From: Rhodococcus marinonascens NBRC 14363
GTDB lineage: Bacteria; Actinomycetota; Actinomycetes; Mycobacteriales; Mycobacteriaceae
NCBI RefSeq assembly: GCF_001894885.1
Contig: NZ_BCXB01000007.1
Location: forward strand, 1 to 64,000
Length of the DNA: 64,000 nt
Reading direction: 5' to 3'
The notes beneath the pieces are model-generated. The model did not search any database. It was not told where the DNA came from and saw only the letters and a program-made list of their open reading frames with translations. Position 1 is the first letter of the stretch. Each line of letters starts with the position of its first letter. The translations under genes were made by a program, and so were the position numbers. Below are positions 2,933 to 47,575 of this stretch, in pieces.

Positions 2933-2938
2933 CGTCGA

Positions 2939-4393
<1,455 letters not shown>

Positions 4394-29255: not shown

Positions 29256-30914
29256 TCAAGCCGTGGCGCTGCGGCGCATTTCACGTCGGAGAATCTTGCC
29301 GCTGGCCGTCTTCGGCAGTTCGTCGACGATCTCCACCCGCCTCGGCGCCTTGTAACTGGCCAGTCGCTCACGGCAGTACTCGACGAGATCGTTCGTCTCC
29401 GCAGTCTGCCCCGGACGAAGGCTGACGAACGCCGCCACGGTCTCTCCGCGGTAACTGTCGGGTTCACCGACGACAGCGGCCTCACGGACCGCCGGGTGCT
29501 GGTAGAGGACATCCTCGACCTCTCGCGGCCAAACCTTGAACCCGGACGCGTTGATCATGTCCTTCTTCCGATCGACGACGTACACCCATCCCTTGGCGTC
29601 CATGAACCCCACGTCACCAGTGAGTAATCGGCCGCCGGGCAGCGACTCCGCGGTGGCGTCCGGCATGTTCCAATATGCAGGCACCACCATCGGCCCCTCC
29701 ACGGTGATCTCCCCGACCTCCATCGGGTCGAGGTCGCCACCGTCCTCGCCGGTTATCCGGATCATGGCCGACGGCAGGGGGAGCCCGATCGCCAGCGTGC
29801 CCGAGGACGGGTCGACCGGGGCCTCCAGATTGGCCGGGACAACGACACACGGCGCACTGGTCTCGGTGAGCCCGTAGCCGTTGCGGATGTATTTTCCGGT
29901 CAGATCGCGGAAGCGTTCGACAATGGCAGGCGGCAGTGGGGCACCGCCGGACATCACGGCCTCCAGTGACGCGAAGCGTTCGCCAGAGAAGTCGGGATGC
30001 GCCATCAAGGCCATGTAGGCGGTGGACGGTCCGACCATGAACACCGGCCGCTCGCGTTCGAGGGCGTCGAGCACGACCCCCGCCTCGAACCGATACGCCA
30101 GTATCAGCGGGGACGCCAGGTCGATCGCGGTCAGCAATTGGCACACCATGCCGGTGATGTGAAACAGCGGCGCGAGGGCGAAGATCGGCGATCCAGCGGG
30201 CTTGTCGTCGTACAGACGCAGAGTCGCGCTGTTGACCGTGAGATTCCGATGAGTGTTGGTCGCCCCCTTTGGTACCCCACTCGTTCCGGAGGTGTAGGAA
30301 ACGAGTGCGACGTCGTCCGGCACCAGACCTGGATTCGGCACGTCGGCCCCGGTCCGGGCCCGAGCCACCTCGAGCAGATCGGGGACGCCTTCGCTGCGGA
30401 CCCTCGCCACTCCCCCGAGCACGCGCGCGTCGTCCAAGGTCTGGATGTCGAGTTCGCTCGCGGTGAGGGCGATCCGCACACCCGCAGCGGAAGCACGCTC
30501 TCCTACATGGTCGGCCCACGCGTTCTCGCTGCACACAATTGCCGTGACTCCGGCATCGGCAAGGATGTGGGACAGTTCGTCCCGGTACATCGGGTTCAGG
30601 GGGACGATGACGCCGCCGGCCTTCCACGTTCCGATCAGTGCCACCGCGAACTGCGGGATGTTCTGCAGGTAGATCGCGAGCCGGTCGCCCTTCGCGAACC
30701 CGTTCTCCGCCAGATATGCGGCAACACCGTCGCTGAGTTCGTCGACCTCACGGTAATCGAGGGTGCCGCCCAGATACCGGATGGCCGGGCCATCCGGGGC
30801 GGATTCGACCGCAGCGGAGAACATTTCGAGCGCGGTCCGGTCGGGTATTACATCCGCCGACCGGATGTTGTCGTCGTACAGGCCAATCCAGGGTTTGTCG
30901 TCATACCAACTCAT
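29256..30914 (-). CDS. AMP-dependent acyl-CoA synthetase
   Basis: Activates a carboxylic acid to its CoA thioester through an acyl-adenylate. The 552-residue ANL enzyme has the P-loop-like motif VSYTSGTSGVPKGAT, the YGLTET motif, the hinge VDRKKDMINASGFKVWPREVED and the catalytic lysine in TASGKILRREM. Substrate cannot be read from the sequence. It is the last gene of the long minus-strand operon and would supply the CoA substrate for the dehydrogenases upstream. A tandem repeat lies in the gap before it. Confidence 0.88.
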   Translation of the reverse strand: MSWYDDKPWIGLYDDNIRSADVIPDRTALEMFSAAVESAPDGPAIRYLGGTLDYREVDELSDGVAAYLAENGFAKGDRLAIYLQNIPQFAVALIGTWKAGGVIVPLNPMYRDELSHILADAGVTAIVCSENAWADHVGERASAAGVRIALTASELDIQTLDDARVLGGVARVRSEGVPDLLEVARARTGADVPNPGLVPDDVALVSYTSGTSGVPKGATNTHRNLTVNSATLRLYDDKPAGSPIFALAPLFHITGMVCQLLTAIDLASPLILAYRFEAGVVLDALERERPVFMVGPSTAYMALMAHPDFSGERFASLEAVMSGGAPLPPAIVERFRDLTGKYIRNGYGLTETSAPCVVVPANLEAPVDPSSGTLAIGLPLPSAMIRITGEDGGDLDPMEVGEITVEGPMVVPAYWNMPDATAESLPGGRLLTGDVGFMDAKGWVYVVDRKKDMINASGFKVWPREVEDVLYQHPAVREAAVVGEPDSYRGETVAAFVSLRPGQTAETNDLVEYCRERLASYKAPRRVEIVDELPKTASGKILRREMRRSATA

Positions 30915-30948
30915 TATCCGCCGTACCGCCTCTCTCGATCTTCGGTGT

Positions 30949-31036: not shown

Positions 31037-31040
31037 TTGT

Positions 31041-31829
31041 TCACCGTGTACCCGAAAGTCCCCCGTCCACGGGGATGATGGTGCCGGTGAGGTAGGCCCC
31101 CGCACGCGAGGAAAGGAAGATCGCGGTGCCCGCCACATCCTCTGGTGTGCCCACGCGGCCGAGAGGAACCGCACCCTCGACCGCTTCCTTCCGTTCCGGA
31201 TTGTCGAGGAAATAGGACATCATCTTGCTCGGAAAGGGCCCGGGTGCAATGGCGTTGACGGTGATCCGCTGGGGAGCCAGTGTCGCGGCCATCTTGCGGG
31301 TGAGCATGTGAACCGCGGCCTTGCTGGCGCTGTAGGAGAAATTGTCGGTGATAGACAGTACGATTCCGTCGATCGAACCGATGTTGATCACCCGGGCGGG
31401 ATCACCATCGGTCGCCGCCGCGCGTAGCCTCGGCAGCAGCTTCTGCGTCAGGCTGAAGACACCCTTGACATTGATGTCGAAGATCTTGTCGAACGCGGAG
31501 TCGGGGAACTCGTCGATCGGTGCGCCCCACGTCGCGCCCGCATTGTTCACGAGCACGTTCAGCTGCGGGGCCACCTCCGCCACCTGGGCAGCGAGGCTTT
31601 CGATCCCCTCCGCCGTGGACAGATCCGCGGGATGGGCGACGCACGTCCCCGGACCCACTGCCGACAACTCCGCGGCCGTGTCAGCGCAGGCGTCCGACTT
31701 GCGCGACGAGATGAGAACAGTCGCGCCCGCCTGGACGAATCCCTGCGCAATCATCCGGCCGATACCCCGCGAACCTCCGGTGACGACGACGGTCTTGCCG
31801 GTGACGTCGAACAATGCTCCCGTATTCAT
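31041..31829 (-). CDS. Short-chain dehydrogenase/reductase
   Basis: NAD(P)-dependent classical SDR, 262 residues, with the cofactor motif TGGSRGIGRMIA, NNAG (LNVLVNNAGATWG) and the active-site YSASKAAVHMLTRKM. The C-terminal GAYLTGTIIPVDGG is typical. The ATG at 31829 is preferred over one two codons upstream because the GAAGGGA ribosome-binding site sits at proper distance only from it. Likely oxidises a hydroxyacyl-CoA or reduces a ketoacyl-CoA within the operon. Confidence 0.88.
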   Translation of the reverse strand: MNTGALFDVTGKTVVVTGGSRGIGRMIAQGFVQAGATVLISSRKSDACADTAAELSAVGPGTCVAHPADLSTAEGIESLAAQVAEVAPQLNVLVNNAGATWGAPIDEFPDSAFDKIFDINVKGVFSLTQKLLPRLRAAATDGDPARVINIGSIDGIVLSITDNFSYSASKAAVHMLTRKMAATLAPQRITVNAIAPGPFPSKMMSYFLDNPERKEAVEGAVPLGRVGTPEDVAGTAIFLSSRAGAYLTGTIIPVDGGLSGTR

Positions 31830-31840
31830 GCGCATTCCCT

Positions 31841-32824
31841 TCAGGGCTGGAACACGAGTCGACCGACGGTGCTGCCGTCGCCCAGACGGCCGATTCCGTC
31901 GGCGACGTCCGCGAGCGAGAGTCGCTCGCTGATGAGCGGCTTGATCGCACCGGATTCTGCAAGCCGGGTCAGTTCCTCGTGGCAGTCGGCGATCGCCTGC
32001 TTGTTGTACGCGTTGTACAGACCCCAGTGAAGCCCGATGATCGAGTAGTTCTTGATCAACGCGTGGTTGAGCCCCGGCGTCGGAATGGTGCCGCCCGCGA
32101 AGCCGATGATCAGAATCCGTCCCTCGAACGCGATGCATTTGGTCGACTTCGCGTAGGCATCGCCGCCGACCGGATCGTAGACGACATCCGCCCCGCGACC
32201 ACCGGTGAACTCCTTGACCAGCGGCACGAAATCATCTGTGTGCCGGTCGATTACCAGATCGGCCCCGAGCCGGCGGCAGTACTCGACCTTGTCGGCACCT
32301 CCGACGACGCCGATCACCTTCGCTCCTGCGGCCTTGCCCAGTTGCACTGCCGCGCTACCGACCCCGCCCGCGGCAGCGTGCACGAGCAGCGTCTCGCCCG
32401 GCTTCAGCTGGGTCCGCCTGTGTAGAGCGAACCAACTCGTCTGGTAGCCGATGGTGAGTGCGGACGCCTCGGCATCGTCGAGCGCAGCCGGGGCGGCGAA
32501 CGCGTTGGACTCGGCCATCACGGCCATCTCCGCGAACCCGCCGGCGGGTAGATTGGGGCTCCCGATCACCCGGTCGCCGACCGCGAAGCGGGTCACGCCG
32601 TCACCGACGGCCAGGACCCGACCGCACAACTCGACTCCGGGCGTGAACGGCAGCGGCGGCTTCATCTGGTACTCGCCACGGCACAGCAGGACGTCTGGGA
32701 AGTTCGCCGGCGCCGCAAGGATCTTCACCAGGATCTCGCCCGGACCGGCATTCGGGTCCTGAATTTCCTCGAGCTGAAGCGCAGTGCGCGGTTCGCCGAG
32801 TTCGTTGATACGCCAGGCCTTCAT
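31841..32824 (-). CDS. Zinc-independent NADPH:quinone oxidoreductase-like MDR protein
   Basis: 327-residue medium-chain dehydrogenase/reductase with N-terminal GroES-like fold and the nucleotide-binding motif VHAAAGGVGSAAVQLGKAAGAKVIGVVGG. The zinc-binding residues of alcohol dehydrogenases are absent, as in the quinone oxidoreductase/enoyl reductase group. ATG at 32824 with GAGGAG upstream. It lies 11 nt before the SDR gene in the same operon; it might reduce an enoyl-CoA or enone. Confidence 0.87.
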   Translation of the reverse strand: MKAWRINELGEPRTALQLEEIQDPNAGPGEILVKILAAPANFPDVLLCRGEYQMKPPLPFTPGVELCGRVLAVGDGVTRFAVGDRVIGSPNLPAGGFAEMAVMAESNAFAAPAALDDAEASALTIGYQTSWFALHRRTQLKPGETLLVHAAAGGVGSAAVQLGKAAGAKVIGVVGGADKVEYCRRLGADLVIDRHTDDFVPLVKEFTGGRGADVVYDPVGGDAYAKSTKCIAFEGRILIIGFAGGTIPTPGLNHALIKNYSIIGLHWGLYNAYNKQAIADCHEELTRLAESGAIKPLISERLSLADVADGIGRLGDGSTVGRLVFQP

Positions 32825-32875: not shown

Positions 32876-33976
32876 TCACGCGGGCAGGTCGATCAGGGTG
32901 GCCAGATGCGCCCGATGGCGGTACGCGGAGCCGAAAGCGAGCTGATCGCTCTTCGCCCTCTTCAGGTACAGGTGCGCGGGGTACTCCCACGTCATGCCGA
33001 CCCCGGCGTGCAGTTGGACGCACTCCTCGGCGGCGTGGACGGCGACATCACTGCAGTAGGCCTGCGCGATCACGGCGGCGATCTCGGCGTCCGCGTCACC
33101 GCGGGCGGAGGTGTCCGCGGCGTACCTGGCAGCCGCCGCGGCGGATGTCACCTCGAGCCAGAGGTCGGCAAGGCGGTGCTTGATCGCCTGGAACGAGCCG
33201 ACCGCGCGACCGAACTGCTTGCGTTCCTTGACGTACGCGAGGGTCGTGTCGAAGCACCATTGCGCGAGTCCGAGTTGTTCGGACGCGAGTAGTGCTGCGC
33301 CGCTGACGAGGGCGGCACGGACCGCCTCCGCCGCGGTGCCGTCGTCGACGCGGGTGGATGCCGCGCCGTCGAACACGACATCCGACAGCGGCCGGGTCAT
33401 GTCGAGCGAGAGGACTGGAGTCGCGGTGACGCCAGCAGAGCCGGCGCTGACGATATGGAGTTCGAGTCCCTCGGGCCCCTCGACCGGCACGATCAGGATG
33501 TCGGCCTCCGCGGCGCCCGCGACGCTGGTGACGGTCCCGACCAGTGCGCCCGCCTCCCGGACCACGCTGGGGGCGAACCGGCCCGGTGCGGTCGCGAGTC
33601 CGACCACGAGCGCACCCGTGGTCGTACCCTCGGCGAGCGCACCGACCGTCTGCTTGTCTCCCGCCTTCAGTAGCGCCACGGTGGCGAGTACCGCACTGGA
33701 CAGGTACGGGACGGGCGCCACAGCGCGTCCGATCTCCTCCATGACCACCGCGGCCTCACGCGCGCCGGCGCCTGCGCCGCCGAGCGACTCGGGCACGAGC
33801 AGGCCCGCAAGCCCGAGGTCGACCGCGAGGGACTTCCAGACTCCGGTGAAGTCGGCGGGTGCCTGGTCGTACATTCCTGCCACCGACTCGGGGGAGCAGC
33901 GATCGACGAGTAGTCGGCGGACACTATCGCGCAGTGCGTCCTCCGTGTCTGAATAGAGCAGGTCTGCGGTGCTCAT
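32876..33976 (-). CDS. Acyl-CoA dehydrogenase, alpha-type partner of a tandem pair
   Basis: 366-residue acyl-CoA dehydrogenase fold protein. The C-terminal part has KERKQFGRAVGSFQAIKHRLADL and HAGVGMTWEYPAHLYLKRA, but the C-terminal flavin motif GG(T/S)xEI with its preceding catalytic Glu is missing. That pattern is known for the subunit that pairs with a catalytic partner in alpha2beta2 dehydrogenases of steroid side-chain degradation. The ATG at 33976 overlaps the stop of the next upstream dehydrogenase gene by 4 nt, supporting equal expression of the two. Confidence 0.87.
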   Translation of the reverse strand: MSTADLLYSDTEDALRDSVRRLLVDRCSPESVAGMYDQAPADFTGVWKSLAVDLGLAGLLVPESLGGAGAGAREAAVVMEEIGRAVAPVPYLSSAVLATVALLKAGDKQTVGALAEGTTTGALVVGLATAPGRFAPSVVREAGALVGTVTSVAGAAEADILIVPVEGPEGLELHIVSAGSAGVTATPVLSLDMTRPLSDVVFDGAASTRVDDGTAAEAVRAALVSGAALLASEQLGLAQWCFDTTLAYVKERKQFGRAVGSFQAIKHRLADLWLEVTSAAAAARYAADTSARGDADAEIAAVIAQAYCSDVAVHAAEECVQLHAGVGMTWEYPAHLYLKRAKSDQLAFGSAYRHRAHLATLIDLPA

Positions 33977-35172
33977 CGGGGCAGGTCCTTCCATGCGATG
34001 TTCTTGTCGACGCGGTGCTCCGGAGGGAGGCCGAGAACGCGTTCTGCGATGACGTTGCGCAGGATCTCGGACGTTCCGCCCTCGATCGAGTTGCCTTTCG
34101 CGCGCAGGTACCTGTATCCGGGTTCGCGTCCGGTGAAGTCGACCTTGTCGGGTCGGCGCATAGACCAGTCGTCGTACCGCAGTCCCGCCTCTCCATGGAG
34201 TTCGATGTCGAAGCCCGAGATGGTCTGCGCGAGCCGGGCGAAGGCCAGCTTCAGGCCGGATCCCTCCGGACCGGGTTGACCGGCCTCCAGTTGCTGCCGT
34301 AGTCGTTCACCGGTCAGCCGCGCGACTTCCGCGTCGACCCACAAGTGGAGCAGGTCGTCGTGCATCGCTCCGTCACGGAGTTCGGGATGCTCCCGCCAAG
34401 TTTGCGCGACCAATCCGATCATGCCGCTCTCGCGGGCAGCCGCGGAACCGCCGATGGCCACCCGCTCATTGTTGAGGGTCGCGGTGGCCACTTTCCAGCC
34501 CTGCCCCTCGTCGCCGAGCCGATTTGCGTCGGGAATGCGCACATCAGTGAGGAACACTTCGTTGAACTCGGCCTCACCGGTGATCTGCCGCAGCGGCCGA
34601 ACATCGATACCGGCATCGCTCATGTCGCACAGGAAGTAGGTCAGCCCGGCGTGCTTGGACACCGACGGATCCGTCCGCGCCACCAGGATGGCCATCTGCG
34701 CGTTCTGCGCTCCCGACGTCCACACCTTCTGCCCGTTGACGGTCCAGGTGTCACCGTCACGAACGGCGCGAGTGGCGACGGCGGCGAGATCGGAGCCCGC
34801 CCCCGGCTCGCTGAACAACTGGCAGTAGATGTGCTCGCCGGTGTAGAGAGGCCGCAGGTAGTTCGCCTGCTGCTCCGGGGTTCCGAAAGCGGCAATGGTC
34901 GGCGCGGCCATGCCCAGCCCGATCCCGTTGCGGTCCTTGGCCGGCCCGGGCGCGCCCGCCGCCGCCAGTTCGGCGTCGACCTGGGCCTGGAAGCCCTGAG
35001 GAAGGCCGAGACCGCCGAATCCGGGCTGAAAGTGGACCCACGCCAGACCCGCGTCGAACCGGGCACCGAGAAACTCCGCGGCATCGGTGAGATCGTTCTG
35101 CTCGATGAGAGCAGCGACGCGGCTGCTCAGGTCCCGTGCGATCGCCTGTTCGTCAGTCGGCATGATGGTCAT
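33973..35172 (-). CDS. Acyl-CoA dehydrogenase, catalytic partner of a tandem pair
   Basis: 399-residue acyl-CoA dehydrogenase introducing an alpha,beta double bond into an acyl-CoA. It has QLFSEPGAGSDLAA, WTVNGQKVWTSGA and the C-terminal motif IEGGTSEILRNVIAERVLGLP carrying the catalytic Glu and flavin contacts. Together with the overlapping gene behind it, it resembles FadE pairs that form heterotetramers. The start overlaps the SDR stop by 1 nt (TGATG); an ATG three codons later is an alternative. Confidence 0.9.
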   Translation of the reverse strand: MTIMPTDEQAIARDLSSRVAALIEQNDLTDAAEFLGARFDAGLAWVHFQPGFGGLGLPQGFQAQVDAELAAAGAPGPAKDRNGIGLGMAAPTIAAFGTPEQQANYLRPLYTGEHIYCQLFSEPGAGSDLAAVATRAVRDGDTWTVNGQKVWTSGAQNAQMAILVARTDPSVSKHAGLTYFLCDMSDAGIDVRPLRQITGEAEFNEVFLTDVRIPDANRLGDEGQGWKVATATLNNERVAIGGSAAARESGMIGLVAQTWREHPELRDGAMHDDLLHLWVDAEVARLTGERLRQQLEAGQPGPEGSGLKLAFARLAQTISGFDIELHGEAGLRYDDWSMRRPDKVDFTGREPGYRYLRAKGNSIEGGTSEILRNVIAERVLGLPPEHRVDKNIAWKDLPR

Positions 35173-35921
35173 CAGTCCTTCGGTCCGCCGGCCACGTAAA
35201 TCACTTGGCCGGACACGAATCCCGCACCTTCACTGGCCAGGAACGACGCCGTGGCGGCGATGTCCTCGGGCTGCCCGACGCGGTTGACCGGGATCTGCGA
35301 GGCGGCCGCCTTCTTGAAGTCCTCGAAGCCCACGCCCATGCGTTCGGCGGTGGCAGCGGTCATCTCGGTCTCGATGAAACCGGGCGCGATGGCGTTGGCC
35401 GTCACACCGAACTTGCCCAACTCCAACGCCAGCGTCTTGGTGAAGCCCTGCATGCCGGCCTTGGCGGCAGCGTAGTTGACCTGTCCGCGGTTACCGAGGG
35501 CGGACGTGCTCGACAGGTTGACGATGCGGCCGAACTTGGCTTCCACCATGTGCTTCTGCACGGCCCGCGACATCAGGAAGGCGCCACGCAGGTGCACGTT
35601 CATGACGGCGTCCCAGTCGTCGACAGTCATCTTGAACAACAGATTGTCGCGGGTGATTCCGGCATTGTTGATCAGGATCGTCGGGTCGCCGAGTTCGTTC
35701 GCCACCCGCTCGACTGCCGCCGTGACAGACGCCTCGTCCCCGACATTTGCGCCGACGGCCAGTGCCCGGCCCCCGGCAGACGTGATCGCGTCGATGGTTG
35801 CGCCGCAAGCGGACTCGTCGAGATCGAGCACGGCAACCGCGTGCCCGTCGGTTGCCAGTTTTTTCGCTACCGCGGCGCCGATTCCGCGGGCCGCTCCGGT
35901 GACAATTGCTGTTCTGGTCAT
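35172..35921 (-). CDS. SDR family 3-oxoacyl reductase (FabG-like)
   Basis: 249-residue classical SDR with TGAARGIGAAVAKKL, an aspartate after beta2 (VLDLDES) suggesting NAD(H) preference, ILINNAGITRDNLLFKM, the catalytic Ser in NLSSTSALG, NYAAAKAGMQGFTKTLALE and C-terminal GAGFVSGQVIYVAGG. The N-A-G-I-T-R-D segment is typical of FabG/PhaB-type 3-oxoacyl reductases. ATG at 35921 with GGGAGGG upstream. It precedes the acyl-CoA dehydrogenase pair. Confidence 0.88.
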   Translation of the reverse strand: MTRTAIVTGAARGIGAAVAKKLATDGHAVAVLDLDESACGATIDAITSAGGRALAVGANVGDEASVTAAVERVANELGDPTILINNAGITRDNLLFKMTVDDWDAVMNVHLRGAFLMSRAVQKHMVEAKFGRIVNLSSTSALGNRGQVNYAAAKAGMQGFTKTLALELGKFGVTANAIAPGFIETEMTAATAERMGVGFEDFKKAAASQIPVNRVGQPEDIAATASFLASEGAGFVSGQVIYVAGGPKD

Positions 35922-35949: not shown

Positions 35950-36984
35950 TCAGATTCCGGTTTGGGCGGCAACATCGCACGCCTTGGCGACGATTTCGTC
36001 GATTCGGTCAGCGGTCGGTGTACCTGCCGCCGCCCGATTCTGTGGTTCGTCCTGCGCCCTACGCATGACGCCCTCGGCAATGACCGCGATCTTCCACAGT
36101 CCGAGGACGTGCCAGAACCCTAGCGCCTTCGGGTCACGCCCGGTGGCGTCGAGATAGGCCTCGGCGATCTCCTCGCGGCTCGGAAAGCCCTCGAGGGTGG
36201 ATGCGGGGAAATCACCGCCGGTCTTCTCGCCCGGTGCGGGCCAGTACGCGAGCAGGCTGCCGATGTCGGCGAGAGGATCGCCCAGAGTGCACAGTTCCCA
36301 ATCCAGCGCCGCGGTCACCTCGCCCGTGTCGGCCGAGGTGATCACATTCCTCAGATGGAAGTCGCCGTGCACCAGCGTGAGCTCGCGTTGCTCGGGCGCC
36401 GAGACGCCGAGTCGTCGCGTCAGGTCGTCGAGGGCGGGCAGGTCGCGGGTCTTCGACTTCTCCCACTGTCCGGACCATCGCTTGAGCTGGCGGTGGGCAT
36501 ACGATTTGTGGCTGGCCAGATCGATAAGTCCCGTCTGCTCGAGATCGACAGCATGGATCTTCACCAGGGTGCGCGGCAGTGACAGGCCGATCACCCTGCG
36601 ACGGTCCGGTGCCAGCGACTCCGCGATGGACATTCGATCGACCACTTGACCGTCGACGAACTCCATCAGCAGGAGAGGGACGTCGCTCACCGCCGGATCT
36701 TCCGTCAGCCCGAACACCCGGGGCGTCGGAACTGCAGTGTCCTCGAGTGCGGACAGGATCCGGGCCTCCCTGGCGACGTCGTGCGCCGACGCGAGCAGGT
36801 GTCCGAGCGGGGGGCGCCTGAGCACCCACCGTCGATCGCCCTGATCCTGCACGAGGTAGGTGAGGTTGGATTGACCGAGACCGATCCGGCCGAAGGTCAA
36901 CGCTCCCGAGTGGTCGATGCCGAGAGTGCCGAACCAGCGGTTCACGGCGTCGGTGTCGATACCAACGACATCCGTACTAGACAC
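35950..36984 (-). CDS. APH-family phosphotransferase (ACAD10/11 or LvaA-like kinase)
   Basis: 344-residue protein-kinase-fold small-molecule kinase. It has a Gly-rich nucleotide loop (GLGQSNLTYLVQ), the catalytic motif LVHGDFHLRNVI (Brenner HxDxxxxN type) and the metal-binding DWELCTLGDPLADIG. DWEL followed by GDPLADI is the hallmark of the kinase domain fused to acyl-CoA dehydrogenase in ACAD10/ACAD11 and of LvaA in levulinate degradation, which phosphorylate 4-hydroxyacyl-CoAs. It is unlikely to be a drug-resistance enzyme. The GTG start at 36984 overlaps the SDR stop by 8 nt. Confidence 0.83.
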   Translation of the reverse strand: MSSTDVVGIDTDAVNRWFGTLGIDHSGALTFGRIGLGQSNLTYLVQDQGDRRWVLRRPPLGHLLASAHDVAREARILSALEDTAVPTPRVFGLTEDPAVSDVPLLLMEFVDGQVVDRMSIAESLAPDRRRVIGLSLPRTLVKIHAVDLEQTGLIDLASHKSYAHRQLKRWSGQWEKSKTRDLPALDDLTRRLGVSAPEQRELTLVHGDFHLRNVITSADTGEVTAALDWELCTLGDPLADIGSLLAYWPAPGEKTGGDFPASTLEGFPSREEIAEAYLDATGRDPKALGFWHVLGLWKIAVIAEGVMRRAQDEPQNRAAAGTPTADRIDEIVAKACDVAAQTGI

Positions 36985-37759
36985 CGAGCGTTGCTCCCTG
37001 CCGGAACGGGAGCGCGTCGCCGAGTAGTTGACCACCGTCGATCACCATCGTCTCGCCGGTGATCCAACTCGCGGCGTCGGACACCAGGAAGGCCACCGCG
37101 CTTGCGATGTCCTCCGGTTCGCCGATGCGTCCCAGTGCAGTCGATGCCGACACAGCCTGCTCGTGCTCTCTCCAGAGAGCTTCAGCCAGTTTCGTCCGCA
37201 CGACACCGGGTGCAACGGCATTGACTCGCACCTTCGGGGAGAGTTCCATCGCCAGTTGCTTCGTCAGATGGATAAGCGCGGCCTTGGACGCGTTGTACAG
37301 ACCGATGTGCGCCTCGTGGGCCATTCCGCCGATGGACGCGGTGTTGACCACCGCTCCGCCGTGCTCGCCCATCCAGGCCCGAGTGGCCAGTCCCGTCCAC
37401 AGCACGGGGGCCCACAGGTTCACATCGAAGGTCTTGGCGAATCGCGCGTGGTCCTGATCGATCACCGGCCCGAACGCAGGGTTGGTTCCCGCGTTGTTGA
37501 CCAGGATGTCCAGGCTGCCGAAGCGTTCCAGGGTGACGTCGACGCAGCGCCTGGCGGCGTCTTCGTCGACCGCGTGCGCGCCGACTCCGATCGCCGTACC
37601 CCCGACCTGCGCTGCGGCGGCGTCAGCGGACTCCTGGGACCGAGAGGTGAGCACCACGTTGCCACCGGCCGCCGTGATCGCCTTTGCTACGGCCAAGCCA
37701 ATGCCCCGCGACGCGCCGGTGACGATCGCGGTACGTCCGGTGAGGTCGAGTCCGGCCAT
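36977..37759 (-). CDS. Short-chain dehydrogenase/reductase
   Basis: 260-residue classical SDR with TGASRGIGLAVAKAI, LDILVNNAGTNPAFG, the catalytic region NTASIGGMAHEAHIGLYNASKAALIHLTKQLAMEL and C-terminal SWITGETMVIDGG. The NAGTNPAFG and YNASKAAL segments resemble SDRs found beside ACAD10/11-like genes. It sits between the kinase gene (8-nt overlap) and the ACAD11-like gene (1-nt gap), so the three form a tightly coupled unit. Confidence 0.88.
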   Translation of the reverse strand: MAGLDLTGRTAIVTGASRGIGLAVAKAITAAGGNVVLTSRSQESADAAAAQVGGTAIGVGAHAVDEDAARRCVDVTLERFGSLDILVNNAGTNPAFGPVIDQDHARFAKTFDVNLWAPVLWTGLATRAWMGEHGGAVVNTASIGGMAHEAHIGLYNASKAALIHLTKQLAMELSPKVRVNAVAPGVVRTKLAEALWREHEQAVSASTALGRIGEPEDIASAVAFLVSDAASWITGETMVIDGGQLLGDALPFRQGATLGV

Positions 37760-37760
37760 G

Positions 37761-39014
37761 TCAGCTCACCGCAACCTTGTGTCCGTTGGCCGAAGCGCCG
37801 GCAGTGGTGTCGCGGTACTTACGCAGTTCCTGCTTGGCGATAGCGCGCTTGTGGACCTCGTCGGGGCCGTCTGCCAACCGCAACGTCCGCAGGTGCGCAT
37901 AGGCCATTGCTAGCGGGAAGTCGTCGGTCACGCCCGCGGCGCCGTGCACCTGAATGGCACGATCGACGATCTTCAACGCGATATTCGGCGCCGCCACCTT
38001 GATCGCCGCGATCTCCATCCGCGCCTCCTTGTTCCCCACCGTATCCATCAGATACGCCGCCTTCAGCGTCAGCAACCGGATCATCTCGATCTCGATCCGT
38101 GCCTCCGCGATCCAATCCTGAATGTTGGCGTTCTCACTGACCGGCTTGCCGAACGTCACCCGCGACGACGCCCGGCGGCACATCAACTCCAAAGTCCGCT
38201 CGGCCATCCCGATCGCCCGCATGCAGTGGTGGATACGACCCGGACCCAACCGCGCCTGCGAGATCGCGAAGCCCTCGCCCGCACCCTTCAGCACGTCCTT
38301 CGCCGGCACCCGCACATCGGCGAAGTCGATCTCGGCGTGACCCTCCCGGTCCTGGTAACCGAACACCGGAAGACCGCGCATCAGCGTCACACCCGGGGCA
38401 TCGATCGGAACGACCATCATCGACTGCTGCCGGTGCGGAGCAGCCGACGGGTCCGTCTTGCCCATCACGATCATGACCTTGCAATTCTTGTGCAATGCGT
38501 TGGACGCAAACCACTTCCGGCCGTTCAGCACGTACTCGTCACCGTCACGAACCATCGACAGCGCAATGTTCGTGGCATCCGAACTCGCCACCGCAGGCTC
38601 GGTCATCGCGAACGCCGACGCCATCGTCCCGTCCAGCAATGGCTGGAGGTACTTCTCCTTGTGCTCCTCGGTACCGAACAGCTGGAGCACCTCCATGTTG
38701 CCTGTGTCCGGGGCATTGCAGTTACACGCCTCCGACGCAATGAAGCTGCGACCCATGATCTCCGCCAGCGGCGCGTACTCGAGATTCGTCAACCCCGGAC
38801 CGGAATCGGGATGCGGGTGGAAGAGGTTCCACAAACCACGACGGCGCGCCTCCGCCTTGAGTTCCTCGATGATCGGCGGCTGGAAATGCGGGTCATCCGA
38901 CTCCCGCATCTGCTCGTCGTACACCGCCTCCGCCGGATACACGTGCGCGTCCATGAACTCCAGCAGATCAGTCTGGTACTGCTGAGCGCGGTCCGAGATG
39001 TCAAACAGGGACAT
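37761..39014 (-). CDS. ACAD11-like acyl-CoA dehydrogenase
   Basis: 417-residue acyl-CoA dehydrogenase of the ACAD10/ACAD11 group. Diagnostic parts are [26 protein letters not shown] (shown in pieces), [31 protein letters not shown] and the C-terminal [11 protein letters not shown], which replaces the usual GGTxEI. In ACAD11 and LvaC this type acts on phosphorylated 4-hydroxyacyl-CoA; a plain dehydrogenase role is the alternative. The ATG at 39014 lies inside the 3' end of the enoyl-CoA hydratase gene (14-nt overlap) and has GGAGT upstream. Confidence 0.87.
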
Positions 39015-39825
39015 GGGAACTCCTGACTGGTAGTGGAAGAAAATTTGGTGCGCGCTTGTCCAGGTGACTCTGTACACCCTCGACGAAATCGACCCCACGG
39101 AATGCTTGCGGCATCAGGCTTTCCGCCCGGGCTACGGATTCGGCGTAGGTGGAGTCCGCGTCGTCTCGTAGTTGGTTCTTGATGGTGGCCAGGGAGGTCG
39201 GTGAGCAGTGCGTCGAGAGATCCGCGGCGTAGGCGACGGCCGCATCCAGCACGTTGCCGCTGGCGATCTGATCCACAAGTCCGATGCGCAGCGCCTCATC
39301 GGCGTCCACCATACGACTCGACAACAGTAGGTCGGCGGCCCGGCTTCGTCCGATCAACCGCGGAAGCATCCACGAGATGCCGTACTCGGCGATCAACCCA
39401 CGCTTGGCGAATGCGGTCGTGAACCGGGCTGACGTCGATGCGAACCGGATGTCGCAGTAGAGCGCCTCCACCATCCCCAGTCCGGCGGCAACCCCGTTGA
39501 TCGCGCCGATAAGCGGTTTGCGCAACCGCGAGGGCAGGTCACGAGGACGCGCACGCTCGAGGTCGGCCCCAGTGAAGTCGGCGGCGGAGACGTCGCCGAC
39601 GGCCTGCAGTCGATCGAGTTCGGCGCCGGCACAGAACCCTCGTCCCGCGCCGGTCACTACGATCGCGCGGACCGCCGGATCGTCTTCGGCCTCGCCGAGC
39701 AGGGCGAAGTAGCAGTCCTCGAGTTCGTCGGTCCAAGCGTTCAACTTGGCAGGCCTGTTGAACGTCAGCACCAGGACGGGTCCGCGACGATCGGAGAGGA
39801 CGAGATCCTCGGGTTCGCTCGTCAC
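39001..39825 (-). CDS. Enoyl-CoA hydratase/isomerase family protein
   Basis: 274-residue crotonase-fold protein with the oxyanion-hole segments [15 protein letters not shown] and [20 protein letters not shown]. The first catalytic Glu position of typical hydratases is less clear than in the valine-cluster homologue, so isomerase or hydratase cannot be told apart. The GTG at 39825 overlaps the SDR stop by 4 nt (GTGA), which decides the start against one 16 codons upstream. Confidence 0.85.
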
Positions 39826-40640
39826 ACGTGCCCCAGCAGGGAACCCTGGTAACGGCGCATCCCCCGAATCCATCGGTCGTAGTCGGACCCCTTCTGCTGA
39901 TACATCGAGAGGACGTTCCCGTGTGGAAGCACCAGGAAGGTTTCCCGGTCCACGGCGTCGAGCACGACATCGGCGACCTGCGCGGGTTGGAGCACCTCTC
40001 CGGCCGACATGACCGCCTGCGTGGCTGCCACCCCCAAAGGGTCACCCGAATCCCGCCCGGCGTAGAGCATCGCGGTGTCCACTCCCATGGGGCACAGGCA
40101 ACTCACGCAGATCCCCTGATCACCGTAGGTGACCGACAACCACTCCGCGAACCCGACGGCCGCGTGCTTGGTGACCGCGTACGTCGCCGAGCCGATCTGG
40201 GTGAGCAGGCCCGCAGCGGACGCCGTCGTGACGAAGTAGCCCTCCCCACGCTCGATCCACTTCGGCACGAGTTGCTGCGCCGCGCGGATATGGGCGCGGA
40301 GATTGACGTCGAGGACGTGATCCCAGTCGGCGTCGCTCGCTTCCAATCCGGGAGCACCCCCGACGCCCGCGTTGGCGAAGTACAGCGCGACGGGCCCGAA
40401 CTCGGTTTCCGCGCGCTCGATGATGCGCCGAATATGATCAGCATTCGCGACATCGGCACCTTCGGCGAGCGCAGATCCCGGGTGCCGGTCGTTGATTCGG
40501 TTGGCAACCGCGGCGGCGGCAGTCGGGTCGAGATCGGCGACCATCACCTTGGCGCCCTGTGCGGCGAGGCGTTCAGCGATTGCGCCGCCGATACCGCCAC
40601 CTCCGCCCGTCACGATGGCGACCTTTTGTGCAACCTTCAC
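39822..40640 (-). CDS. Short-chain dehydrogenase/reductase, first gene of the operon
   Basis: 272-residue SDR with TGGGGGIGGAIAERL, an Asp after beta2 (VADLDPTAA) suggesting NAD(H), YFANAGVGGAPGL, the active-site segment YFVTTASAAGLLTQIGSATYAVTKHAAVGFAEW (shown as its core Ser, Tyr and Lys) and LCPMGVDTAML. The GTG at 40640 lies 46 nt downstream of a convincing -10 box. It heads the long minus-strand catabolic operon and is divergent from the MaoC gene. Confidence 0.87.
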   Translation of the reverse strand: MKVAQKVAIVTGGGGGIGGAIAERLAAQGAKVMVADLDPTAAAAVANRINDRHPGSALAEGADVANADHIRRIIERAETEFGPVALYFANAGVGGAPGLEASDADWDHVLDVNLRAHIRAAQQLVPKWIERGEGYFVTTASAAGLLTQIGSATYAVTKHAAVGFAEWLSVTYGDQGICVSCLCPMGVDTAMLYAGRDSGDPLGVAATQAVMSAGEVLQPAQVADVVLDAVDRETFLVLPHGNVLSMYQQKGSDYDRWIRGMRRYQGSLLGHV

Positions 40641-40686: not shown

Positions 40687-40715
40687 TGTATAGTTGAATC
40701 CGTCGTCAAGTTCAA
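40687..40715 (-). promoter_or_regulatory. Promoter of the long catabolic operon
   Basis: On the minus strand TTGAAC (40715-40710) and TATACA (40692-40687) are separated by exactly 17 nt, a good housekeeping-type promoter, 46 nt upstream of the first SDR start. The 16-bp shared operator motif fills the spacer, the position expected for a repressor site. Confidence 0.65.
40694..40709. promoter_or_regulatory. Shared operator motif, copy 1
   Basis: TTGAATCCGTCGTCAA on the plus strand: TTGA and TCAA half sites flank 8 bp. It matches 13 of 16 positions with the site upstream of the lactonase gene (48630) and is weaker relative to the one upstream of the MHS transporter (46641). It lies in the promoter spacer between the divergent SDR and MaoC operons, so one protein could control both. 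Confidence 0.5.
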
Positions 40716-40773: not shown

Positions 40774-40806
40774 CCATGCACCACCCGAATCCATGCACCA
40801 CCCGAA
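40774..40806. repeat. Short tandem duplication before the MaoC gene
   Basis: CCATGCACCACCCGAA occurs at 40774-40789 and 40791-40806. It creates two ATG codons in front of the real MaoC start. The real start at 40821 has an AGGGAGA ribosome-binding site, so these are not likely used. Confidence 0.75.
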
Positions 40807-40820
40807 ATAGAGGGAGACAG

Positions 40821-41309
40821 ATGATCGAGACCACCACACTGCCCGTCCGTCCGTCGAGCTTCGACGAGTTGACCGCGTTGATCGGCAAGGAACTAGGCCC
40901 CACCGAATGGCACGACGTCACCCAGCAACGGGTCAACGATTTCGCGGACGCCACCGACGACCATCAGTGGATCCACATCGATCCCGAACGCGCCGCTGCC
41001 AGCCCGCTCGGCGGCACCATCGCGCACGGGTTGTACAGCCTGTCTCTCGGACCGGCACTTTCCGCACAGCTACTGCGATTCGACGGCTTCGCGCACGGCC
41101 TGAACTACGGCTATAACAAGGTGCGGTTTCCCGCTCCCGTACCGGTCGGTTCGCGCATCCGGATGCGCGCTACGGTGCTGTCCGCCGAAAAGGTCGGCGG
41201 CGGAATCCAGGTCACGATGAGCCAGGTCGTCGAGCGCGAAGGGTCCGACAAGCCGGTGGTCGTGTCCGAGTCCGTCTCTCGCGTCGTCGAGGCCGCCCCG
41301 CAGCCGTAA
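40821..41309 (+). CDS. MaoC-like (R)-specific enoyl-CoA hydratase
   Basis: 162-residue hot-dog-fold protein with the catalytic motif FADATDDHQWIHIDPERAA...GTIAHGLYSLSL, where the conserved Asp, His and GTIAHG are intact. It hydrates trans-2-enoyl-CoA to 3-hydroxyacyl-CoA. ATG at 40821 is chosen for its AGGGAG site; an upstream in-frame ATG lies in a short duplicated stretch. First gene of a plus-strand trio with an acyl-CoA ligase and a reductase. Confidence 0.9.
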   Translation: MIETTTLPVRPSSFDELTALIGKELGPTEWHDVTQQRVNDFADATDDHQWIHIDPERAAASPLGGTIAHGLYSLSLGPALSAQLLRFDGFAHGLNYGYNKVRFPAPVPVGSRIRMRATVLSAEKVGGGIQVTMSQVVEREGSDKPVVVSESVSRVVEAAPQP

Positions 41310-41386: not shown

Positions 41387-42907
41387 ATGGCAAATGTGAT
41401 CGACCCCGTGTCCCACCACTCGGACACCACTCCCGACAACATCGCACTACGGGGTGCGGACAGCACCTTGACCTACCAACAGTTGCTCACCGAGGCCGTT
41501 CGCTACGCGGGCACCCTCATCGAGGCAGGCCTTTCCCCCGGCGATCGGGTCCTCCTCGCAGCGCCTTCCGTTCCCGAGTTCGTGGTCGCATACCTGGGGG
41601 TCCAGGCGGCGGGCTGCGTCGTGGTCCCGGTGAACACGATGTCCACCCGGCCCGAGACTGAGTACGTCCTTACCGATGCCGGCGTCTCGCTCGCCATTGT
41701 CTGGCACGAACTCGGACCCGCCGTCAGCGATGCCGCAGCAGCACTGGACATCCCAGTCTGGACGTTGACACCCGACGGCCCGACAACGGGCGCCGCGCCT
41801 GGATCCGTCGCCGACCGGCAACTAGACGAAACCGCCGCCATTCTCTACACGTCCGGCACCACCGGACGACCGAAGGGTGCGGAGCTCACCGTTGGAAACC
41901 TGTTGTCCGGCGGTGAGATCGGGATGGAGTGCAGTCGCGGATCGAACCAGGACCGGATCGGTACCGGACTTCCCCTGTTCCACGTGTTCGGTCAGGCCTC
42001 GGTCATGATGGCCACGTTCACAGGCGGCGGATCGTTGTCGCTGCTGGCGCGGTTCGATCCGGCAGCGATGCTCGCCATGCTGCGACGCGACCGTCTCACG
42101 ATCATGGCCGGCGTGCCGACGATGTGGAATGCGATGCTGCACGCGGCAGACGGCGCCGACCCAGAGGACTTCACGAATCTCCGCATCGCCATCTCCGGTG
42201 GCGCGTCGTTGCCGGGCAAGGTGGCGCGTGATTTCGAATCGCGATTCGGCTGCACGATCCTCGAGGGATACGGGCTCACCGAGACCACCGCGTTCGGCAC
42301 GTTCAACGACATCGACCGCGGAGGAAAGATCGGCTACACCGGACGCGCAGTACCGCGTATGGAAGTGGTCGTGAAGGATCCCAACGATGTCACCTGCCCG
42401 CCCGGCACTGTCGGTGAGGTGTTCGTGAGGGGTGCGACCGTGATGAAGGGCTACTGGAACCGGCCGTCCGACACAGCGGAGGCACTGTCCACGGACGGGT
42501 GGCTACGCACCGGGGATCTCGGGGAGACCGACGCAGACGGGGATCTTCGCATCGTCGACCGATTGAAAGACCTCATCATCCGTGGCGGCTACAACGTATA
42601 CCCCAGCGAAGTAGAAGAGGCCCTCTACGCGCACCCCGGCATCGTCGAGGCAGCGGTCGTCGGCGTACCGGACGACCACTACGGAGAAGAGGTAGCCGCG
42701 GTGGTGGCGACTGTACCCGGCACAGAACTCGACAGTGCCGAACTGATCGCCTGGGCGCGGGAAAGACTGTCCGCATACAAGATTCCCCGAATCATCTCTG
42801 TCGTCGACACCCTCCCGAAGGGATCGACCGGCAAAATCCTCAAGCGCTCGATCGACAGGACGGCGCTGCGCCAAGACACGCTGCCTGCCGAAGTACCCGA
42901 AAGGTGA
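41387..42907 (+). CDS. AMP-dependent acyl-CoA synthetase
   Basis: 506-residue ANL ligase with AAILYTSGTTGRPKGAEL, GYGLTETTAFGTFN, the hinge IVDRLKDLIIRGGYNVYPSEVEE and the catalytic Lys in KGSTGKILKRSI. Domain order and length are normal. Substrate is not evident; with MaoC upstream and a reductase 7 nt downstream it probably feeds a beta-oxidation-type pathway related to the divergent operon. Confidence 0.9.
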   Translation: MANVIDPVSHHSDTTPDNIALRGADSTLTYQQLLTEAVRYAGTLIEAGLSPGDRVLLAAPSVPEFVVAYLGVQAAGCVVVPVNTMSTRPETEYVLTDAGVSLAIVWHELGPAVSDAAAALDIPVWTLTPDGPTTGAAPGSVADRQLDETAAILYTSGTTGRPKGAELTVGNLLSGGEIGMECSRGSNQDRIGTGLPLFHVFGQASVMMATFTGGGSLSLLARFDPAAMLAMLRRDRLTIMAGVPTMWNAMLHAADGADPEDFTNLRIAISGGASLPGKVARDFESRFGCTILEGYGLTETTAFGTFNDIDRGGKIGYTGRAVPRMEVVVKDPNDVTCPPGTVGEVFVRGATVMKGYWNRPSDTAEALSTDGWLRTGDLGETDADGDLRIVDRLKDLIIRGGYNVYPSEVEEALYAHPGIVEAAVVGVPDDHYGEEVAAVVATVPGTELDSAELIAWARERLSAYKIPRIISVVDTLPKGSTGKILKRSIDRTALRQDTLPAEVPER

Positions 42908-42914
42908 AAACACA

Positions 42915-43928
42915 ATGACATCCCTGAACAGACAGGTCCGACTGGCGAAGCGTCCGATCGGTCGGCCCGACGATTCCACGTGGGAGATCACGTCCGAACC
43001 GATCTCCGAACCCTCGGCCGGCGAATTCACCGTGCAGGTGGACTACGTGTCACTCGACCCCGCCATGCGCGGATGGCTGAACGACGTGAAGTCGTACGTG
43101 CCACCGGTCCAGATCGGCGAGGTGATGCGCACGCACGCCGTCGGCCGGGTGATCGCGTCGCAGAACGCGACGTTCCCCGTCGGCAAGCTCGTCACCGGAC
43201 CGTTCGGAGTCCAGGAGTTCGCTCTCTCTGATGGGCGCGACGTTGTCATCGCGGACGAGTCGCTCGCGCCTGCACCGACGTGGCTCGGTGCGCTCGGATT
43301 TCCAGGAATGACAGCGTATTTCGGTCTTACCGATATCGGCAAGCTCGAGCAGGGCGACACTGTGCTCATCTCCGGTGCCGCGGGAGCGGTCGGGAGCATC
43401 GCAGGGCAGATCGCCAAGCTGAAGGGCGCTACGGTCATCGGCATCGCCGGTGGGCAGGAGAAGTGCGCCTGGCTCACCGACGAACTGGGTTTCGACGCCG
43501 CGATCGACTACAAGTCCGAATCCGTTGGCAAGGCACTGCATACCGCCGCACCGGACGGCATCGACATCTACTTCGACAACGTCGGCGGCGATATCCTCGA
43601 CGCCGCACTCGCCCACCTTCGCAAGAACGCGCGGGTCGCACTGTGCGGTGCGATCTCTGGCTACAACGCCACCGATCCGCAGCCTGGCCCATCACGCTAT
43701 CTCTCACTCCTGATCAACCGGGCCTCGATGACGGGGTTCATCGTGTTCGACTACCTCGACCGGTTCCCTGAGGGGATGAAGGCGATGTCGGAGTGGATTC
43801 GCACCGGTGAGATCGTCACCCGCGAGCAGGTGGAAACCGGAGGCGTCGACGCATTCGGCCGCACGCTCAACTTGCTGTTCGACGGTGCCAACACCGGAAA
43901 GTTGGTGCTGAAAGTCAGCGATCACTGA
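42915..43928 (+). CDS. NADP-dependent MDR reductase (CurA/leukotriene B4 12-hydroxydehydrogenase type)
   Basis: 337-residue zinc-free MDR enzyme with the family start NRQVRLAKRPIGRP, the segment SLDPAMRGWLNDVKSYVPPVQIGEVM, the NADPH motif SGAAGAVGSIAGQIAKLKG and YFDNVGGDILDAAL. This group reduces the double bond of enones or of 15-oxo-prostaglandins. ATG at 42915, 7 nt after the ligase gene with GAAAGG upstream. Confidence 0.9.
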   Translation: MTSLNRQVRLAKRPIGRPDDSTWEITSEPISEPSAGEFTVQVDYVSLDPAMRGWLNDVKSYVPPVQIGEVMRTHAVGRVIASQNATFPVGKLVTGPFGVQEFALSDGRDVVIADESLAPAPTWLGALGFPGMTAYFGLTDIGKLEQGDTVLISGAAGAVGSIAGQIAKLKGATVIGIAGGQEKCAWLTDELGFDAAIDYKSESVGKALHTAAPDGIDIYFDNVGGDILDAALAHLRKNARVALCGAISGYNATDPQPGPSRYLSLLINRASMTGFIVFDYLDRFPEGMKAMSEWIRTGEIVTREQVETGGVDAFGRTLNLLFDGANTGKLVLKVSDH

Positions 43929-46592: not shown

Positions 46593-46640
46593 CCGATCAC
46601 TCCTCGAGATAGGTCTACGCATGGACATTGGACGATGATT

Positions 46641-46656
46641 TAGAACCTGACGCCAA
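46641..46656. promoter_or_regulatory. Shared operator motif, copy 2
   Basis: TAGAACCTGACGCCAA, 13 of 16 identical to the site upstream of the lactonase gene (TTGAATCTGACGTCAA), with the following C also shared. It is 49-64 bp upstream of the MHS transporter start. The neighbouring TetR protein is the natural candidate ligand. Confidence 0.5.
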
Positions 46657-46667
46657 CTTCAACTCGG

Positions 46668-46926: not shown

Positions 46927-47574
46927 CTACCGGCCTCGAGCGCGGTCAGGAATACGCAGTGCGTTGGTCCACATGCGTGCCAGTCCGGCAGTCAGCTGAT
47001 TCACCGTGGCCGATTCCCGTTCACTCAGCGGTCCGACGAAGTAGCCGTAGGCCACCCTTCCGACCATCGCGGACAACGCTTTCGATGTCAGCATCGGGTC
47101 CAGGGACGCGTCTGCAAGACCGCGAGCCTGGAGGTCGGCGATCGATCGCGCGTTGCGGCCGAAGAACGCCTCGTCCCGTTGACGTGCTAGCTCACGGAAG
47201 TTGGGGTCGACGTGCGCAACCTGCTCCAGCAGAGCTAGCAGTCGCGCATTCCGGCGCCACGCATGCAGATAGGCGCGAATGCTCGCTTCCACGACTGCGT
47301 GAACGTCCCCCTCGTCCGCCACCCGCCCCATACCCGGGTGCAGAAGGTCGTTCTGCGTCACCTCTACAACGGCCGCAAATACCTCCTCCTTATTGGCGAA
47401 GTATGTGTAGAACGAACCGGTGGAGAGTCCGGCCTCCTTGCTGATGTCGACGAGGCGCGCGTCGAGATAGCCTGCGCGCTCGAAGACCACGCGGGCCGCC
47501 GCGACCAGGCGGTCGCGGGTACGGACGCCCCGTGCGGTAACCGGCACCGCGTGTGTGGTTCGCGGACTCGACAT
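46927..47574 (-). CDS. TetR family transcriptional regulator
   Basis: 215-residue regulator with an N-terminal TetR helix-turn-helix (TRDRLVAAARVVFERAGYLDARLVDISKEAG, core given by GLSTGSFYTYFANKEEVF) and a variable ligand domain. The ATG at 47574 (SSPRTTHAVP) is 1 nt after the lactonase stop; a TTG five codons earlier is less likely. Co-transcribed with the lactonase gene, so it probably senses a substrate or product of that enzyme and may bind the shared 16-bp motif. Confidence 0.88.
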   Translation of the reverse strand: MSSPRTTHAVPVTARGVRTRDRLVAAARVVFERAGYLDARLVDISKEAGLSTGSFYTYFANKEEVFAAVVEVTQNDLLHPGMGRVADEGDVHAVVEASIRAYLHAWRRNARLLALLEQVAHVDPNFRELARQRDEAFFGRNARSIADLQARGLADASLDPMLTSKALSAMVGRVAYGYFVGPLSERESATVNQLTAGLARMWTNALRIPDRARGR

Positions 47575-47575
47575 T

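Follow-up and report, generated by a model that had tools for sequence, protein, structure and literature searches.

The window analysed here comprises the first 64,000 nucleotides of contig NZ_BCXB01000007.1 of Rhodococcus marinonascens NBRC 14363 (assembly GCF_001894885.1). Its minus strand carries an operon of 11 genes running from 40640 to 29256, with a predicted 4-hydroxyacyl-CoA kinase and an ACAD11-like acyl-CoA dehydrogenase (ACAD) at its centre. In order, the genes encode a short-chain dehydrogenase/reductase (SDR_d), a crotonase, the ACAD11-like protein, another SDR (SDR_c), the kinase, SDR_b, two ordinary ACADs, a quinone-oxidoreductase-like protein, SDR_a and a CoA ligase. Intergenic distances range from -52 to +51 nt between 40640 and 31041, followed by 126 nt ahead of the ligase gene. 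The central genes are as follows.

35950..36984, minus strand: predicted 4-hydroxyacyl-CoA kinase with APH fold, of the LvaA/ACAD11 kinase-domain type (Pfam APH, 162.7 bits; ACAD11 PDB matches; residues)
36977..37759, minus strand: SDR_c oxidoreductase, candidate LvaD-like 4-oxo/4-hydroxyacyl-CoA reductase (NCBIfam glucose 1-dehydrogenase subfamily, 320 bits)
37761..39014, minus strand: ACAD11/LvaC-type ACAD, predicted to eliminate phosphate from 4-phosphoacyl-CoA (PDB matches, residues)

The kinase open reading frame (ORF) has a GTG start at 36984 and shares 8 nt with the SDR_c gene, and 1 nt separates the SDR_c start from the end of the ACAD gene. A preliminary description of this DNA had read the three genes as a split ACAD10/11-like module in one operon. 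This was confirmed; its 8-nt overlap and 1-nt gap were exact, and the protein strings HGDFHLRN, DWELCTLGDP and LADGPDEVH were found in ORFs of the window. Its account of the operon content (CoA ligase, SDRs and crotonase) also stood, while its gene list was incomplete, leaving out the two ordinary ACADs (32876-35172), the quinone-oxidoreductase-like gene, the divergent MaoC, ligase and PTGR-like genes, and the lactonase, transporter and TetR genes described below. Among 17 same-genus loci (L036-L052, from 16 genomes), the SDR gene lay between the ACAD and kinase genes in 16, and in the seventeenth (L040) the contig end falls before the ACAD. SDR_c was 85-95% identical and held the same place across the genus loci. 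The possibility that this SDR is a foreign insert was rejected, since its position is conserved across the genus loci and lva operons hold an SDR too.

The four top PDB sequences for the kinase were 9o56, 3dxp and two of mouse ACAD11 (137-169 bits), with the mouse sequences scoring 137-141 bits. The ACAD matched four ACAD11-type PDB sequences with 433-447 bits, and its next best match scored 151.5 bits. Statements taken from the literature refer here and below to the available parts of the papers cited. Mouse ACAD11 has D220, N225 and the CoA-binding R86 and R176 in its kinase domain and R626, R631, H634, R637 and D753 in its ACAD domain, and R626, H634, R637 and the catalytic Asp are required for ACAD10/11 activity (PMC12440821); R631 is conserved across the ACAD family. 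In HMMER alignments, R72, R165, D208 and N213 of the window kinase corresponded to R86, R176, D220 and N225, and R255, R260, H263, R266 and D382 of the window ACAD to R626, R631, H634, R637 and D753, with the HCMR motif intact. Nine of nine checked functional residues of ACAD11 were identical in the two window proteins, and the accessory H597 of mouse ACAD11 was kept as H226 of the ACAD. Both catalytic Asp columns are fixed because PDB entries 8v3u and 8v3v carry kinase and ACAD mutants there; the remaining positions were obtained by manual counting along the chain as printed.

Conservation was followed in 16 genus loci, in 19 high-identity loci (72-90%; all loci of at least 72% identity among the matches listed) and in 20 lower-identity loci (58-67%; hand-picked among the matches listed, mostly from the top of the list). 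R255, R260, R266 and D382 were kept in 55 of 55 ACAD11-type rows and H263 in 53 of 55. The kinase residues were kept in 16/16 genus loci and in all 14 high-identity matches covering them (15 of the 19 high-identity loci gave a match). The lower-identity group gave a kinase match in 9 of 20 loci, with two exceptions at E73 and two at R165. Judged from these sequences, the kinase is of the LvaA/ACAD11 type and is predicted to act on 4-hydroxyacyl-CoA, and the ACAD is of the ACAD10/11-LvaC type and is predicted to expel phosphate from 4-phosphoacyl-CoA. The match to the two halves of ACAD10/ACAD11, as first described, thus holds down to the functional residues. The likeness to the LvaA/LvaC pair was supported by the descriptions in PMC6692424, PMC9628823 and PMC11342911, on which the whole lva comparison rests. 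The proposed conversion of 4-hydroxyacyl-CoA toward 3-hydroxyacyl-CoA required refinement: the expected ACAD product is 2-enoyl-CoA, which is only partly hydrated to 3-hydroxyacyl-CoA (PMC11342911).

Two other places in the same genome carry related genes. A second kinase, 59% identical, was found at G000:C7:88612-89670 (L033); this match crosses one stop codon, no ACAD11 match was found within the 18 kb examined around it, and further matches of 58-61% are spread over the genus. At G000:C25:9237-11560 (L034), all signature residues are present in a second kinase/ACAD11-type pair (36% and 50%).

The split kinase/ACAD form is ordinary in bacteria. Pseudomonas LvaA and LvaC are encoded by separate genes (PMC6692424), and ACAD11-type genes with an annotated kinase adjoining were found in R. 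opacus PD630, Sphingobium and Sphingopyxis. On Cupriavidus necator pHG1, an ACAD11-type gene was seen with no kinase annotated nearby in a gene table that is incomplete. An SDR within the operon is expected because lva operons carry the SDR LvaD, which reduces levulinyl-CoA to 4-hydroxyvaleryl-CoA (PMC6692424); by analogy with this published role, SDR_c is a candidate LvaD-like reductase. SDR_c-like genes (49-54%) also lay within 2 kb of the lower-identity ACAD11 gene in 7 of 20 loci (L151, L159, L162, L164, L165, L166 and L168). The preliminary description had seen no obvious LvaB, the 12-kDa partner of LvaA, and we agree: the operon gaps of at most 51 nt, and of 126 nt before the ligase, leave no room for it, the rest of the genome not having been searched for LvaB. 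Its absence from the operon is nothing out of the ordinary: the cluster of P. citronellolis is likewise described without LvaB (PMC6692424).

The other genes of the operon, and the three genes divergent from it, are as follows.

39822..40640, minus strand: SDR_d, first gene of the operon (Pfam adh_short; adjoins ACAD11 in many clusters)
39001..39873, minus strand: crotonase/enoyl-CoA hydratase-like protein (Pfam ECH_1, 150 bits)
35172..35921, minus strand: SDR_b, FabG-like, possible 3-hydroxyacyl-CoA dehydrogenase (TIGR01830, 264.6 bits, under cut-off)
33973..35172, minus strand: ordinary ACAD, likely partner of the next gene by inference (Pfam ACAD domains)
32876..33994, minus strand: second ordinary ACAD, nearest model IpdE2, under the NCBIfam cut-off (NCBIfam, Pfam)
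31841..32824, minus strand: quinone-oxidoreductase/PIG3-like reductase (TIGR02824, 242.5 bits, under cut-off)
31041..31835, minus strand: SDR_a (profile matches)
29256..30914, minus strand: LIG1, acyl-CoA ligase (Pfam AMP-binding, 254 bits; 49-50% identical to R. erythropolis-type QsdC)
40776..41309, plus strand: MaoC-like hydratase (Pfam MaoC)
41387..42907, plus strand: LIG2, second acyl-CoA ligase (Pfam AMP-binding, 293.7 bits)
42915..43928, plus strand: PTGR-like (ADH_N_2) reductase (Pfam)

The gap at 30915-31040 ahead of LIG1 consists mainly of head-to-tail copies of a unit of about 18 bp (CACAGTCAGGCACCTCTA-like).

Between 45 and 49 kb, the window contains major facilitator superfamily (MFS) transporter, TetR and phosphotriesterase (PTE) family genes (45228-48568), of which the MFS and PTE genes are homologous to QsdD and QsdA of the R. 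erythropolis quorum-quenching cluster.

45228..46628, minus strand: MFS transporter, QsdD homologue (77-79%; sequence matches)
46927..47589, minus strand: TetR-family regulator, candidate reader of the palindrome described below, not QsdR-like (Pfam TetR_N)
47576..48568, minus strand: PTE-family protein, homologue of the lactonase QsdA (56-58%; Pfam PTE, 284 bits)

QsdA acts on N-acyl-homoserine lactones (AHLs) and alkyl gamma-lactones (PMC6262395, PMC3689677, PMC6476934), and gamma-caprolactone (GCL) induces qsdA and qsdC in R. erythropolis (PMC6476934). When contigs were scanned with SDR_d, 27 loci were obtained, including one of R. erythropolis NBRC 15567 (L078). In this locus, all eight qsdR/A/C/D primers of PMC4640858 matched with 0 mismatches at 274-4793, and the forward-primer spacings were identical to the published R138 positions. 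The genes for SDR_d, crotonase, ACAD11, SDR_c and kinase follow on the same contig and on the qsdA strand, from 10001 to past 13606. The qsd primer sites thus lie 5-10 kb ahead of the first operon gene, qsdA, qsdC and qsdD are on the operon strand, and homologues of the window TetR, LIG2 and MaoC are located between the qsd genes and the operon. Compared with L078, the window lactonase was 56%, the MFS 78% and LIG1, matching at the qsdC place, 49% identical. Across erythropolis-type loci, the products at the qsdA, qsdC and qsdD positions were 56-58%, 49-50% and 77-79% identical to the window lactonase, ligase and MFS, respectively, and LIG1 was the best window match to the qsdC position in L078 and the others. 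The window TetR did not match the qsdR ORF of L078 significantly (best E 0.8), and its identification as QsdR was rejected.

Among 25 same-genus genomes, our own included, 21 had a kinase of at least 74% identity. A QsdA-like gene was present within 13 kb of the kinase and on the same strand in 17 of these 21 (with an interrupted frame in G006 and G021), and the two genes were on different contigs in three genomes (G004, G020 and G023). Outside the genus, a lactonase gene neighbours ACAD11 in Mycolicibacillus koreensis (L083) and in 5 of the 19 high-identity loci (L137 and L144-L147, four of the five from one genus), compared with 0 of the 20 lower-identity loci.

The lactonase and transporter genes also have a predicted operator in common with the operon.

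40694..40715, plus strand: predicted palindromic operator, 22 bp, in the SDR_d/MaoC divergent promoter (in 16/16 extracted intergenic regions)
46641..46662, minus strand: operator copy just ahead of the MFS ORF, 12 nt from the first ATG (pattern and matrix)
48630..48651, plus strand: operator copy 61 nt ahead of the lactonase start (pattern and matrix)

The SDR_d/MaoC intergenic region contained TTGAATCCGTCGTCAAGTTCAA or one of two variants in all 16 extracted rows, two of which (L050 and L078) are the same locus. The operator was first spotted by eye in the aligned intergenic regions and then scored by a weight matrix trained only on operon promoters, the window's included. A simple palindrome finder allowing at most 1 mismatch returned nothing in six promoter rows and two upstream stretches. 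Across the 64-kb window, the next matrix sites were those before the MFS gene (20.1) and before the lactonase gene (19.5), the following one scored 15.4, and the top scores of five Markov nulls were 12.6-18.7. The same matrix gave 31.1 and 29.1 in L131 and 27.3 and 22.0 in L137, both from other genera, and in R. erythropolis it gave 32.3 for the kinase operon site and 18.3 for a weak qsdD site. A consensus pattern with at most 2 mismatches was found in the whole 4.9-Mb genome at three exact places and at one other with 2 mismatches; the reversed control gave 0. With a looser pattern and 1 mismatch, 22 of 24 chosen genomes matched at 47 distinct places, and controls gave 0 in all 24. Of these places, 35 were within 12 kb of an ACAD11, kinase or lactonase gene, and 4 of the other 12 were PTGR promoters (G003, G010 and G017) or lay between lactonase and PTGR genes (G317). 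At 1 mismatch, the pattern was present in 13/19 high-identity loci versus 0/20 lower-identity loci, and at 2 mismatches in 15/19 versus 1/20. The original suggestion that the substrates might come from lactones gains strong support from the linked lactonase, with which the operon shares the operator.

Some loci keep operator and genes in other arrangements. In G010, G017 and G003 (L173, L174 and L175), the operator is retained in the promoter of a PTGR homologue located far from the cluster, and in L173 an alpha/beta-hydrolase-like ORF, so named by sequence judgement, is divergent from this homologue. In G012, the lactonase, TetR, MFS, PTGR, LIG2, MaoC and two ordinary ACAD genes stand together without the kinase core (L061, G012:C1:2178000-2196000), and both this place and that of the core keep the operator. 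The R. opacus plasmid pRop44186_a (L067), typed as mobilizable, carries the SDR-crotonase-ACAD11-SDR-kinase core with two MFS genes adjoining and an operator-like site ahead; the core may therefore move on its own.

We consider it likely that the cluster forms a regulon for the catabolism of gamma-lactones and of related 4-hydroxy or 4-oxo acids, feeding them into beta-oxidation. Gene content, functional residues, synteny with the qsd genes and a common motif were observed directly, and from them we infer the enzymatic steps, the substrate range, the identity of the regulator and the roles of the SDRs. The lactonase (47576-48568) would open the gamma-lactone ring, a CoA ligase (29256-30914 or 41387-42907) would form the 4-hydroxyacyl-CoA, and the kinase would phosphorylate its 4-hydroxyl group at the expense of ATP. 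The ACAD11-type flavoenzyme would then expel the phosphate without net oxidation to give a 2-enoyl-CoA, phosphate elimination being described on a redox-active but unspent flavin adenine dinucleotide (PMC12440821). The crotonase or MaoC, an SDR and the two ordinary ACADs would perform beta-oxidation. SDR_c and/or SDR_d would most likely interconvert 4-oxo- and 4-hydroxyacyl-CoA in an LvaD-like manner, allowing keto acids to enter and perhaps the wrong enantiomer to be inverted. Joint control of the lactonase, the transporter and the kinase operon would be exerted through the palindromic operator, with the linked TetR as its probable reader. The ACAD10 kinase prefers the R form (PMC11342911), so an SDR pair would be useful for inverting the S form via the 4-oxo acid. 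That the pair does so is our guess. Substrates of the PTGR-like family are enones and alkenals, and we would likewise guess that the PTGR-like gene product could reduce 4-oxo-2-enoyl or butenolide-type substrates.

Several observations weigh against a lactone regulon of this kind. G013 and G022 have ACAD11-clade genes (79-82%) and an in-cluster operator with no QsdA-like gene genome-wide (E 0.001); the module can thus do without this lactonase. The kinase core and the lactonase gene are 0.9 Mb apart in G012, G002 has a QsdA-like gene with a best kinase of just 59%, the five-gene core on the R. opacus plasmid has no QsdA-like gene in 19 kb, and 14 of the 19 high-identity loci show no lactonase within about 9 kb. 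As to the operator, the matrix rests on three distinct sequences, and the two weaker window sites scored 19.5 and 20.1 when one of the five Markov nulls reached 18.7. Eight of the 47 places fit no cluster gene. Four of these were inspected: two in G267, where weak homologues of ACADs, ligase and crotonase occur near one of the two (L177), and one each in G024 and G018 (L178 and L179), where no cluster homologues were found. The IUPAC patterns were drawn up when sites in the window and in several high-identity loci were already known, and their counts therefore measure specificity more than discovery. Finally, no operator copy was found among the top scores in the R. erythropolis qsdR-qsdA intergenic region, which QsdR controls (PMC6262395).

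A levulinate-type pathway, in which 4-oxo acids (levulinate and its homologues) are the main natural substrates, are reduced by an SDR and are then processed as by P. putida lva, is a possible but less probable explanation; the lactonase would then be a minor or separate entry sharing the regulator. The SDR between the ACAD and kinase genes recalls the levulinyl-CoA reductase LvaD of lva operons (PMC6692424), and several loci have the cluster but no lactonase, as do two genomes of the genus taken as a whole, whereas the lactonase has operator and neighbourhood in common with the operon in several genera. The odds of this pathway and of the gamma-lactone regulon overlap because the kinase/ACAD trunk is common to both. 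It is improbable that the substrate is a larger ring or steroid-like acid, with a gamma-hydroxyl in its CoA ester and with the two ordinary ACADs and the SDRs acting on ring fragments. The ACAD at 32876-33994 is nearest to the IpdE2 model (180 bits, under the cut-off of 450), but no steroid or ring family cut-off was reached among the best 25 families for each of ten proteins scanned, and the linked lactonase is homologous to QsdA, an enzyme for AHLs and alkyl gamma-lactones. It is very unlikely that the ACAD11-like protein is an ordinary dehydrogenase and that the kinase acts elsewhere: ordinary ACADs share its fold and Pfam domains, but the protein has the catalytic base Asp and R255/H263/R266, residues needed for ACAD10/11 activity (PMC12440821), and none of six other ACADs of the same genome (those fetched out of 28 weaker matches) had Arg255, His263, Arg266 or Asp382, one alignment stopping before 382. 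The least credible alternative, an aminoglycoside- or macrolide-type phosphotransferase standing by chance in a fatty-acid operon, has the Pfam name APH and weak NCBIfam matches on its side, and was rejected because these matches (APH(3') 41.2 bits, Mph 18-21 bits) are far under the cut-offs of 205 and 500-550, PDB drug kinases scored at most 27 bits versus 137-169 for ACAD11, 3dxp and 9o56, and the pairing with ACAD11 is conserved. The better match to drug-resistance phosphotransferases that the preliminary description had named as grounds for giving up its proposal was therefore not seen in the PDB and NCBIfam scores.

Building on the gamma-lactone regulon, it is conceivable, and we put it forward tentatively, that quorum quenching in rhodococci arose as a by-product of an old catabolic regulon for gamma-lactones and 4-hydroxy acids, comprising lactonase, transporter, two SDRs, kinase and ACAD11 as one unit with a conserved TetR-type operator in several actinobacterial genera. 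SDR_c and SDR_d would invert (S)-4-hydroxyacyl-CoA via the 4-oxo form to the (R) form that the kinase would prefer, so that racemic lactones would be fully used.

Barbey and co-workers described degradation of the opened lactone by beta- or omega-oxidation (PMC3689677). The word "kinase" is absent from the main text of PMC6262395, and the available parts of PMC8416521 and PMC8347015 contain nothing on the kinase operon. Among the matches listed, judged by title and start of abstract, no literature was found joining qsd with LvaA, ACAD10/11 or a 4-hydroxyacyl-CoA kinase, and in the literature search qsdA was not found co-mentioned with ACAD11, LvaA, 4-hydroxyacyl-CoA or levulinyl-CoA. The kinase-ACAD11 operon offers the step left vague in the available qsd texts, in a biocontrol bacterium. 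This step can be tested at once because qsdA and qsdR deletions have already been made in R. erythropolis (PMC6262395, PMC3689677). The cluster is also a bacterial parallel to human ACAD10/11 for which a source of substrate is likely, and it comes with a predicted motif for the regulon.

Compared with known systems, the window resembles lvaABCDE of P. putida KT2440 in that kinase and ACAD are encoded separately within one operon that also holds SDR and CoA ligase genes (PMC6692424, PMC11342911), and the same phospho-elimination chemistry is predicted. It differs in its gene order, ACAD-SDR-kinase, in having no LvaB-sized operon gene, in carrying a TetR gene and a palindrome where lva has LvaR, and in a regulon that adds a lactonase, extra ACADs and hydratases. 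The lva-like cluster of P. citronellolis LA18 has a kinase, an ACAD and an SDR without LvaB, as in the window, but it has a histidine phosphatase, and no lactonase is mentioned in the available description (PMC6692424). Mammalian ACAD10 and ACAD11 have the same functional residues as the window proteins in their kinase and ACAD parts, HCMR and the catalytic Asp among them (PMC12440821, PMC11342911), but they are each one bifunctional chain, whereas the window encodes two proteins, their genes separated by that of an SDR, and lacks the HAD domain of ACAD10. With the R. erythropolis qsd cluster (QsdR, QsdA, QsdC and QsdD; PMC4640858, PMC6262395), the window has lactonase, ligase and MFS homologues in common. 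The window regulator is not QsdR-like, its lactonase promoter bears the operon palindrome, and its ligase gene is at the far end of the kinase operon and not beside the lactonase gene; in R. erythropolis NBRC 15567, the qsd cluster itself adjoins the kinase-ACAD11 operon. The enzymes are ordinary and the assembly is new: an lva/ACAD11-type trunk joined to a lactonase, with a common predicted operator, beside qsd genes.

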